Positions 25,647 to 36,791 of a stretch of 36,791 nt of DNA are shown here, piece after piece (position 1 is the stretch's first letter; the number at the start of each line of letters is the position of its first letter). The stretch comes from a virus: the IMG/VR virus record IMGVR_UViG_3300023284_000800, positions 1-36,791 of that record; one strand, given 5' to 3'. Made by a program: the position numbers and the translations under genes. The notes beneath the pieces are model-generated. The model made no database searches and was not told the origin of the DNA. It worked only from the letters and a program-made list of their open reading frames with translations.

Positions 25647-25892
25647 ATGACACAGCTCATCGCCCCCAGGATTACCCTGCCTGAATATTTGGTTATTCTT
25701 CGGCGCCGATCAGGTCTATCTCAGCTAAATGCGGCAAGTAGGGCAGGTCTAGCAAACCGCCATTTATACAGATTAGAGCACGGAGAAATTGCTTGTAAGG
25801 TCAAGGATCTCGTGGCGCTGTCTACCCTATACCAGGTGTCGCCGGCCACGTTTTGGGCGGTTGATGCCACGGCCCCCGAACCCGATGCCTAG
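25647..25892 (+). CDS. XRE-family HTH regulator (81 aa)
   Basis: ATG 25647 is six bases after GAGGTG; ATG 25644 is an alternative. Residues 11-66 form a Cro/CI-type helix-turn-helix: LPEYLVILRRRSGLSQLNA, SRAGLANRHLYRLEHGE, KVKDLVALSTLYQVSPATFW. It lacks a cleavable CI-like C-terminal domain. It stands directly after a promoter and terminator and overlaps the methyltransferase by eight bases, so it likely controls its own operon. The presence of one such gene alone does not prove lysogeny. Confidence 0.85.
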   Translation: MTQLIAPRITLPEYLVILRRRSGLSQLNAASRAGLANRHLYRLEHGEIACKVKDLVALSTLYQVSPATFWAVDATAPEPDA

Positions 25893-26637
25893 CCTCTTAG
25901 ACTTATACTGTGGAGCTGGAGGAGCGGCGATGGGATATTCCCGGGCAGGCTTTGAGGAAATCGTTGGTGTGGACAATCGGCCACAGAAGAATTACCCGTT
26001 CCGGTTCGTCCAGGCCGACGCCTTGGAGTATTTAGCCCAGCACGGGAAGGAGTATGACGCTATCCATACCAGCCCACCGTGTCAGGGATTCACTTCCATG
26101 AGGAAGATGTGGAACGCAAGGGAGCATCCTGACCTCCTCACGCCAACCCGTTTACTCCTTGTTGCCCTTAAAATCCCGTTTGTCATTGAGAACGTGCCGG
26201 GGGCTCCGATGTTGAATTACGTGACCCTTTGCGGCTCTATGTTTGGACTTGGCTCAGGAGATGCCGAACTCAGGCGTCATAGATGGTTTGAAATAAACCC
26301 TCCGCAAATGTGGTTACGGCGTCCCTGCGCTCATAACCAGCGGCCAAGAACCAACACAGTCTTGAGCCACGGAGGAAATGACGGTAGTCGTAACGGGCCC
26401 ACTGTGGGCGTCTACGGCCACAGTGGAGGCAGCAGCAACAGAGAAAAGGCAAGGGTCATTGGAGTCTATGGTGGGCATGGGCGTGACCACCGCCGGCGCA
26501 CCAACACCCAGGGGTTTTCCGTTAAGGAAAGGAGTGAGGCTATGGGCATCGACTGGATGACGGGGGATGAGCTCTCCCAGGGCATCCCGCCGGCTTACAC
26601 CGAGTACATTGGTAAGGAGCTGTTGAAGCAGCTATGA
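25885..26637 (+). CDS. C5 cytosine DNA methyltransferase (250 aa)
   Basis: ATG 25885 overlaps the XRE stop. Motif I DLYCGAGGAAMG (residues 6-17), motif IV SPPCQGF with catalytic C66, motif VI ENV (102-104), motif VIII RHRWFE (131-136) and the final IPPAYTEYIG (234-243) are all present in order. The variable target-recognition region (about 150-210) is short, Arg/Gly-rich and holds two related VGVYGHSGG / IGVYGGHGR segments. No restriction partner is encoded, so this is an orphan enzyme, probably protecting phage DNA. The target is unknown. Confidence 0.92.
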   Translation: MPSLLDLYCGAGGAAMGYSRAGFEEIVGVDNRPQKNYPFRFVQADALEYLAQHGKEYDAIHTSPPCQGFTSMRKMWNAREHPDLLTPTRLLLVALKIPFVIENVPGAPMLNYVTLCGSMFGLGSGDAELRRHRWFEINPPQMWLRRPCAHNQRPRTNTVLSHGGNDGSRNGPTVGVYGHSGGSSNREKARVIGVYGGHGRDHRRRTNTQGFSVKERSEAMGIDWMTGDELSQGIPPAYTEYIGKELLKQL

Positions 26638-27251
26638 CGTGGCTCAGAATTGACGACCACTATGCCTCCCACCCAAAGTTATTTACCGCCGGACCGATGG
26701 CGATGGCCCTGGACATCGCAGGAATGTGCTACTCCTCCCTTCACCTTACTGACGGGTTTATCCCTGAAAGTATCGTCGAGAGCTTAACCAAAATGAGCAA
26801 GAGCCAGGCCGACCGTGCGGTGATGCGATTGGTCGAAGTTGGGCGTTGGGAGCAAGGGGAGGTTGGCTGGAATATCCATGATTTTACCGATTTCAACCCC
26901 GCCGGTGAGTGGGTTAGAGAACGACGACGCAAGGATGCCGAAAGGCACCGCGACCGCCGTTCGTCCCAGCGGAGTCCCAGCGGAGTCCCAGCGGAGTCCC
27001 AGGACCGTCCCAGCGGAATCCCGCGACCCCGTACCCCGGCCCCGGCCCCGTCCCCGGGAGACCCTAGTAATATGTATATACCGTATAAGGAAGATGTCCA
27101 AAAAAACGGCCAGGAGGACGCCGATGGAATCCCTAGGAGAGATACTGAGCCGGATAGTCAACACCCAAGACAGGCCGAGGTTGACGCTGCAGCAGGTGAG
27201 CGAGCTAGTAACCGCCGAGGGCGACGGGCTGGCGGAGTGCCCGAAGTGTAG
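26634..27251 (+). CDS. Replication initiator / replisome organiser-like protein (205 aa)
   Basis: ATGA couples it to the methyltransferase. Residues 1-95 match the layout of phage replisome organisers: TWLRIDDHYASHPKL, SSLHLTDGFIPESIVESL, a winged-helix part (KSQADRAVMRLVEVGRWEQG), then WNIHDFTDFNPA, followed by an Arg-rich linker. An 11-bp tandem repeat lies within the linker. The last 43 codons overlap the helicase-loader gene in another frame, so the precise C-terminus is uncertain. It would bind the origin and recruit the loader. Confidence 0.72.
   Translation: MTWLRIDDHYASHPKLFTAGPMAMALDIAGMCYSSLHLTDGFIPESIVESLTKMSKSQADRAVMRLVEVGRWEQGEVGWNIHDFTDFNPAGEWVRERRRKDAERHRDRRSSQRSPSGVPAESQDRPSGIPRPRTPAPAPSPGDPSNMYIPYKEDVQKNGQEDADGIPRRDTEPDSQHPRQAEVDAAAGERASNRRGRRAGGVPEV
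26963..27017 (+). repeat. Five tandem 11-bp repeats (candidate iterons)
   Basis: Units of GTCCCAGCGGA at 26963, 26974, 26985 and 27007 are identical; the unit at 26996 differs in its last four bases (GTCCCAGGACC). The period is close to one DNA turn. An AT-rich stretch (27065-27092, TAGTAATATGTATATACC) follows 50 bases later. The arrangement inside an initiator gene resembles lambda ori. Confidence 0.7.
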
Positions 27252-27951
27252 CGGAGACGGCTGGCTTACCTATAACGTGAAGTTTGGGGAGCCCAACTTT
27301 GGGCACGTATTCCCTTGCAGCTGCACCGGTTGGTATGAAGGCGTTGAAAGGGATCGGATGCGCGAGCAGGATTTTGAAAACTTTCCGCACAAAAAAGCTC
27401 CAAGAAATTTCAAAAATTTTGAGCAAAATACTTCGCAGCGCGTTGAACTTTTTGAAAAAATATTTTCATGGGCGCAAGATTCTGACCGCGCGCACCTGTT
27501 GTCTCTGGCGGGTCCGAACGGCACCGGAAAGTCCCACGCACTGGAGAGTTTAGCCCGACATTTTTTTGACCAGGGATGGACGGTCCAGTTCCACAGCATG
27601 GGAAAACTGGCCGCTGAATTCCGTGGTCTAGTAGCGGAAAAGAAAAGCCTAGATGAAAAATATGCCAACCTCGCGGTGCCGGAGCTCCTAGTAGTCGATG
27701 ACATCACCGAGCGCGGCACCGATTTTACAGCGGAGGTCCTGGAGGTAATCCTGGAGCCTCGCTACCAGGGACGCGGCTATATGATCGTCGCCACGAATAT
27801 CCCGGATACGGTGATGGCCGAGGTCTGGGGGTTCCGGATTACCGATCGGGTGTTCGACCTCCACTCCGGCGACACGGAGCTAATCTATACGGCTGGCAAG
27901 AGCGCCAGGACCGGCCGCCACTGGCTGGAAATCAAGAGGAAAGTGAGATGA
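27124..27951 (+). CDS. DnaC-like AAA+ helicase loader (275 aa)
   Basis: AGGAGG (27112-27117) is six bases before ATG 27124; earlier in-frame starts lack such a site. An N-terminal CPKC / CSC zinc motif (residues 39-67) precedes the AAA+ core: Walker A GPNGTGKS (130-137), Walker B LLVVDD (188-193), sensor-1 ATN (223-225). It would load the host DnaB-type helicase at the origin. A segment of about 110 bp (27370-27480) before Walker A is strikingly AT-rich and uses different codons from its surroundings. Confidence 0.9.
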   Translation: MESLGEILSRIVNTQDRPRLTLQQVSELVTAEGDGLAECPKCSGDGWLTYNVKFGEPNFGHVFPCSCTGWYEGVERDRMREQDFENFPHKKAPRNFKNFEQNTSQRVELFEKIFSWAQDSDRAHLLSLAGPNGTGKSHALESLARHFFDQGWTVQFHSMGKLAAEFRGLVAEKKSLDEKYANLAVPELLVVDDITERGTDFTAEVLEVILEPRYQGRGYMIVATNIPDTVMAEVWGFRITDRVFDLHSGDTELIYTAGKSARTGRHWLEIKRKVR

Positions 27952-36592: not shown

Positions 36593-36738
36593 TGAAGTGT
36601 AGCAAAAGATGCAAGGTGGAGGTTCACTGGTACGACTATCTTTTGTTCCTGATCCCCGTTGCAGGAATAGTACCCTTCGTTTTGGTGATAGAGGATCGTC
36701 ACGGTAGATATTGTGATGGAGTAGTTGAGATTTTTTAA
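36592..36738 (+). CDS. Small membrane protein spanning the genome junction (48 aa)
   Basis: TAATG at 36590-36594 gives the start; the frame ends at TAA 36736-36738 (= 89-91). The sequence MKCSKRCKVEVHWYDY is followed by a hydrophobic span (LLFLIPVAGIVPFVLVI) and an acidic-basic tail. A basic start and single span suggest N-in topology. It is the second membrane protein in a row, supporting a membrane-acting module here. Confidence 0.7.
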   Translation: MKCSKRCKVEVHWYDYLLFLIPVAGIVPFVLVIEDRHGRYCDGVVEIF

Positions 36739-36791
36739 CGTGTTTGAATTGCCGTTCGGTAGGGGCTGCTGGCGGTGCCATGTAGGTCGCC
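36648..36791. repeat. Circular-overlap repeat, right copy
   Basis: Exact second copy of bases 1-144. Joining the two gives a closed map of 36,647 bp and lets the small gene that starts at 36592 read through to its stop without interruption. Confidence 0.95.

Follow-up and report, generated by a model that had tools for sequence, protein, structure and literature searches.

Genes and sequence elements at the initiator locus

The window, that is, the whole stretch of viral DNA analysed here (36,791 nt), carries a 144-bp direct terminal repeat at positions 1–144 and 36648–36791, which makes it probable that the record represents a complete genome in the form of a 36,647-bp circle, in line with the circle size given in an earlier note on this DNA. 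At about 27 kb we identified a gene for a replication initiator (Rep) with a block of short direct repeats (iterons) inside it, followed by a C-rich array, an AT-rich stretch and a gene for a DnaC-like helicase loader. The features are listed below in window coordinates.

26634–27251, + strand: replication initiator gene Rep, 205 aa (phrog_2447, E 5e-29; phrog_3926; phrog_9474 'replication initiation protein'; tblastn matches to 54 actinophages)
26634–26897, + strand: winged-helix N-terminal domain of Rep, residues 1–88 (AlphaFold2, pLDDT 96, pTM 0.85)
26904–26963, + strand: long basic helix of Rep, residues 91–110, the proposed iteron-reading helix (AlphaFold2 prediction; covariation with iteron class)
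26963–27028, + strand: iterons, five 11-bp units GTCCCAGCGGA (TCC-N4-GGA) plus a decayed sixth (repeat scans; position and 11/12-bp phasing as in relatives)
27027–27055, + strand: C-rich array with CCCC runs every 6–7 nt, giving G-runs on the bottom strand, a G-quadruplex-type motif (motif scan; same place and strand in relatives)
27065–27088, no strand assigned: AT-rich stretch TAGTAATATGTATATACCGTATAA, proposed unwinding element (79% AT, top 0.16% of window 24-mers)
27124–27951, + strand: DnaC-like helicase loader, 275 aa, AAA+ (phrog_50, E 1e-19; phrog_3277 'DnaC-like helicase loader'; Pfam IstB_IS21 above cut-off)

The N-terminal domain of Rep is homologous to the phrog_2447 family: in an alignment of 60 sequences W3, D7, D8, G41 and L66 are invariant, and the window Rep is 25–42% identical to the 59 relatives. 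A Pfam search of Rep returned no family at E 0.1. AlphaFold2 gives a confident prediction for residues 1–111 (pLDDT 96), which form the winged-helix domain and then the long basic helix, and comparison of the model with the PDB by Foldseek produced only weak matches, to winged-helix proteins, none of them below E 0.001. The best start of the loader gene is at 27124 (AGGAGG), so that it overlaps the initiator ORF by 128 nt (27124–27251) in another frame. On the other side, rep is adjoined by an ORF for a C5-cytosine DNA methyltransferase (25888–26637; phrog_363, E 1e-35) with a 4-nt overlap (26634–26637); DNA methylases are also located upstream of rep in the Gordonia phages Murp and Gudmit.

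The iterons sit in the linker of Rep, right after the predicted basic helix. Identical units GTCCCAGCGGA occupy 26963–26973, 26974–26984, 26985–26995 and 27007–27017, the fourth unit in order is a variant (GTCCCAGGACC, 26996–27006), and the decayed sixth (ATCCCGCGACC) lies at 27018–27028. The unit carries an inverted repeat, TCC-N4-GGA. Since this array is the sole exact tandem duplication of a unit of at least 8 bp in all 36.8 kb, the iterons are not a chance pattern; if one mismatch is allowed, the unit occurs at a single further place in the window, 34767. The five consecutive 11-bp units, four of them identical, that the earlier note had placed in the linker of a replisome-organiser-like gene are therefore real (26963–27017), the gene being the 205-aa ORF with its matches to phage replication-initiation families. 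The order that it had described, initiator, repeats, AT-rich stretch and DnaC-like loader, holds as well, with a C-run array, its core at 27027–27055, as the GC-rich part.

Apart from this array, neither strand of the window has a place where four or more C3+ runs follow one another at gaps of 1–3 nt, and the array also has the most extreme bottom-strand G4Hunter score of the window (−2.16). Within the AT-rich stretch we found an 11-nt inverted repeat TATACCGTATA (TATAC-C-GTATA) at 27077–27087. The bottom strand of the region folds no better than shuffled sequences, and an Rfam search of 25–29 kb matched no RNA element.

Two general origin signals were also considered. The earlier note had expected a minimum of cumulative GC skew near 27 kb, and none is seen there: the raw minimum is at base 10 and the detrended minimum at 22.5 kb, at the end of a leftward gene block (block-shuffle p about 0.05). 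As the skew tracks gene strand, it is weak evidence either way, neither backing nor refuting an origin at 27 kb, and it was dropped as an origin marker. Even with one mismatch allowed, no DnaA box lies between 25,977 and 29,096, the nearest being at 25968 and 29097, and a DnaA-type origin was rejected for that reason.

Conservation of the layout in distant relatives

No close DNA relative of the window was found by megablast against phages or by single-protein peptide-pattern scans, so the question whether the repeats are absent from close relatives was addressed in distant relatives only. Protein-level searches yielded 54 actinobacterial phage records, to which 160 viral-contig rows and 78 loci in bacterial genomes were then added; removal of near duplicates at 80% identity over the N-domain left 157 non-redundant members. 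Owing to the way in which the searches were run, these come mostly from actinobacterial phages and genomes.

In 104 of the 157 members, at least four C3+ runs spaced by 1–3 nt are present on the coding strand at +250 to +700 nt from the initiator start, with 31 matches at 300–399, 61 at 400–499 and 10 at 500–599. Elsewhere over ±2.5 kb there are 0–2 matches per 100-nt bin, and almost none on the opposite strand. A looser definition (three runs) raises the number to 128 of the 157. The units are mostly of 5 bp (CCCGA, CCCGT, CCCAA, CCCAT) and sometimes of 6 (CCCGTA, CCCCGA); the arrays of some relatives (CCAAGA, CCAATA) have no triple C runs. By these sequence comparisons the GC-rich stretch, which the earlier note passed over, is the most conserved element of the layout. 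In several Streptomyces members (L222, L227, L237, L242, L244, L253) the C-array is missing, and the same place, about +450 to +520 nt from the rep start, carries a common motif close to GCAGGTCAGGAGGGGGTGTCACACCG; they possibly constitute a different origin sub-type.

The elements on either side of the array recur as well. In the relatives the DNA 5' of it is strongly enriched in repeats, scoring 11.5 where control stretches score 2.4, and the spacings that dominate among these repeats, 11, 12 or 21–24 bp, correspond to one or two helical turns; the comparison of the repeat array across related phages that the earlier note had proposed thus finds position and 11/12-bp spacing conserved, among distant relatives only. 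The first 20 nt after the array show an AT peak of 54% against a baseline of about 33–37%. A perfect hairpin of at least 6 pairs lies within 50 nt of the array in 66 of the 128 array-bearing relatives, compared with 5.6% in controls. These hairpins mostly have a C–G closing pair and a loop of TAAC, TAAA, TGAC or TAC, corresponding to GTTA, TTTA, GTCA or GTA in the bottom strand; GNA and GNNA loops are unusually stable in DNA. The window has no hairpin of this type, that is, no stem of at least 6 pairs in the 50 nt 3' of the array. DnaA-trio-like triplets after the array were set aside, as the enriched k-mers CTAACG, CTTCTA and TAGT are largely explained by hairpin stems and loops. Loader-like ORFs just 3' of the rep start were detected in three relatives besides the window (L144, L196 and L241; phmmer against the window loader, E 6e-10 to 6e-5), and in most relatives the flanks examined contain none.

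In a reverse scan of viral contigs, which started from the arrays, an ORF with the Rep domain lies at most 1 kb 5' of 54 of the 87 arrays of the type (CCCGA)n and of 17 of the 38 of the type (CCCAT)n. Many of the other arrays, located in frames that are short or have no notable features, give the impression of simple repeats with no connection to the layout. One (CCCAT)n array (L257, 987–1009) is found in a gene matching phrog_2509/9474 'replication initiation protein' outside the main family, and another (L258, 9795–9817) in a gene matching phrog_9327 'primosomal protein' and Pfam DUF1376. The C-array may be a wider phage-origin element.

The C-array is coding in 96 members, where it occurs in all three frames (45, 28 and 23), and in 8 others it is located 3' of the stop codon of Rep. 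Arrays in every frame or beyond a stop codon point to a constraint on the DNA and not on the protein. Since Rep ends before the array in those 8 relatives, its C-terminus may be dispensable, and changes in array copy number, which at 11 bp shift the frame, may be tolerated; the part of Rep past about residue 130, partly overlapping the loader gene, is probably little constrained.

It is highly improbable that the repeats reflect neutral slippage in a low-complexity, Ser/Pro/Arg-rich linker and have no function as DNA. The linker is indeed of low complexity, its units give one SPSGVPAESQ-type peptide whichever frame is read, and tandem repeats do expand by slippage, but the 11-bp and 5-bp units disregard the codon frame, the arrays persist past stop codons, strand and place are strictly kept, and the repeats covary with residues of the Rep helix, as described below.

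Covariation between the basic helix and the iterons

Iteron classes were set by hand from short motifs (GTCAC, CGTTA, GAACG, AAGCAA) for 73 members, which covers about half of the set, with 70 of the 157 unclassified. Counted from a nearly invariant Arg of the basic helix, positions +3, +6, +7, +10 and +11 are associated with iteron class at z of 13–22, whereas the best of 80 N-domain columns reaches 4.8. In the window the anchor is R98, followed by D101, A102, E103, R104 and H105, of which D101, A102, R104 and H105 are the key residues. Among pairs of proteins less than 45% identical, which are not phylogenetically independent, 93% share the iteron class if +3 and +7 both match and 14% if neither does. 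Leave-one-out prediction of the class among distant proteins succeeds in 85% of cases from six helix residues, an optimistic figure because these very data had served to select the positions, compared with 28% from N-domain similarity and 30% by chance. The pair and leave-one-out tests lessen the effect of shared ancestry and do not remove it.

None of the other members in the set of 157 falls into the iteron class of the window. The array scan provided a further locus, L311, with a Rep 30% identical to that of the window and a helix that reads DDAERKR in place of KDAERHR; its iterons are GTCCAAGCGGA/GTCCAAGAGGA at 12-bp spacing, as compared with GTCCCAGCGGA at 11 bp. Members with the helix pattern D-A/Q-x-R-K (L071, L088, L172, L348) have GTCC/GGAC or TCCG/CGGA half-sites above the background mean of 2.5, in some cases modestly. 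The covariation together with the match to L311 indicates that the initiator very probably reads the repeats within its own gene.

The spacing of the helix positions is familiar from another protein family. Basic regions of bZIP proteins use positions 0, +3, +4, +7 and +8 (Asn, Ala, Ala, Ser/Cys, Arg); the Rep helix has the same spacing, and the largest iteron class, GTCAC/GTGAC, is close to the bZIP half-site TGAC. This resemblance is an analogy, not homology.

The helix–iteron match argues for binding only, and the iterons could in principle be operators that let Rep repress or adjust expression of its own operon or of the loader gene, with the origin elsewhere. Initiators often autoregulate, and the loader starts just 3' of the sites. 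Nevertheless, we regard such a role as unlikely: the sites are 330 nt inside the gene, 3' of its start, whereas operators of rep would be expected upstream, and they come attached to a C-array and an AT stretch, with the position of the array and the AT peak both conserved.

A candidate origin and its relation to known systems

We consider it very likely that the region of iterons, C-array and AT-rich stretch is a phage replication origin embedded in the initiator gene, which would work via Rep binding, melting and helicase loading. The earlier note had proposed an origin here from the parallel with lambda; the conserved position and spacing and the residue-to-repeat covariation support that reading, and are stronger support than the parallel itself. 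Under the proposed mechanism, Rep would bind the 11-bp iterons at 26963–27017 via its basic C-terminal helix, and the 11-bp spacing would place successive Rep molecules in a stack along the same side of the double helix. Strain from the stacked copies would then open the adjacent AT-rich stretch at 27065–27088, and the DnaC-like protein from the neighbouring gene would load the host replicative helicase onto the exposed strand. The C-array would itself be an element of the origin: more speculatively, once opened, the G-runs of its bottom strand could fold and keep the bubble open.

A variant of the origin reading, which leaves the main claim in place, is that the C-array acts as double-stranded DNA, either as a rigid GC clamp or as a further Rep site phased by half-turns, and not as a folded or single G strand. 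Its probability is only a little short of even. A period of 5 bp is half a helical turn, some arrays (CCAAGA, CCAATA) are without triple C runs, and the basal unwinding origins of bacteria have a short GC-rich gap between the DnaA boxes and the unwound trios (PMC8287927). However, the strand bias and the runs of at least three C with gaps of 1–3 nt fit what a G-quadruplex motif requires and would not be needed for a clamp, and 98% of the array-bearing relatives reach a G4Hunter score of −1.2 and 81% a score of −1.5. The present data are compatible with a role of the G strand as well as with one as a clamp or extra Rep site.

Returning to the origin reading as a whole, it is possible, though we hold it to be rather less than an even prospect, that the origin of the window belongs to a large class of phage origins in which three parts lie within the initiator gene or directly after it. 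The first would be iterons specific to each initiator and read by a basic helix with a register like that of bZIP proteins (0, +3, +4, +7, +8); the second a strand-specific (GGGNN)n element of the bottom strand, which would fold or be bound as a single strand and so keep the bubble from closing; and the third an element that is AT-rich or forms a hairpin, the latter with GNA/GNNA loops on the bottom strand, for loading of helicase or primase. In this class the C-array would also mark initiator or primosomal genes outside the present family.

As far as the searched literature shows, most origins of actinobacterial phages are unmapped. From sequence alone, the layout described here indicates where the origin probably lies in considerably more than a hundred of these phages, and it offers candidate minimal replicons; the helix–iteron covariation would make the recognition code of a phage initiator readable. 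We found no description of the C-array layout or of the helix code in the literature searched, a weak negative given that subscription journals were mostly outside it. Should the G-rich strand element turn out to be required, the origin would contain a component that is not described in that literature.

The closest working parallel is the lambda origin in gene O, which likewise has iterons in the initiator gene, an AT-rich stretch 3' of them, a loader gene next to it and an inverted repeat in the iteron unit. The iterons of the window are of 11 bp, compared with about 18–20 bp in lambda, and in the window the C-array separates them from the AT stretch. The loaders differ as well: lambda P is not known to be an AAA+ protein, whereas that of the window is an AAA+ protein of the DnaC-like type. 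As Rep has no Pfam match, there is no homology to lambda O by sequence; membership of that group by homology was rejected, and the likeness is to the working of the lambda origin only. In that origin the iterons bind O dimers and are followed by a 40-bp A+T-rich region (PMC5043065).

The bacterial basal unwinding system, which consists of DnaA boxes, a GC-rich gap of about 4 bp and DnaA-trios (PMC8287927), has the same order of initiator sites, GC-rich element and unwound element. In contrast to that gap, the C-array is repetitive and about 18–45 nt long, and with no DnaA boxes near it the site is not an origin of this system. For extrachromosomal mycobacterial prophages with RepA, an origin inside or just upstream of repA has been suggested, as in lambda, and no repeated motifs were present in the region examined (PMC7157519). 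Their RepA is, like Rep, a phage initiator with a predicted HTH, but it is of 320–350 aa and related to plasmid RepA (PMC7157519).

Compared with the actinophage families phrog_2447, phrog_3926 and phrog_9474, the window has an iteron sequence of its own, an adjoining AAA+ loader that is rare among the relatives examined, and no hairpin of the kind seen in about half of the array-bearing members. It shares with them a homologous N-domain and, in most members examined, the layout of in-gene repeats and C-array.
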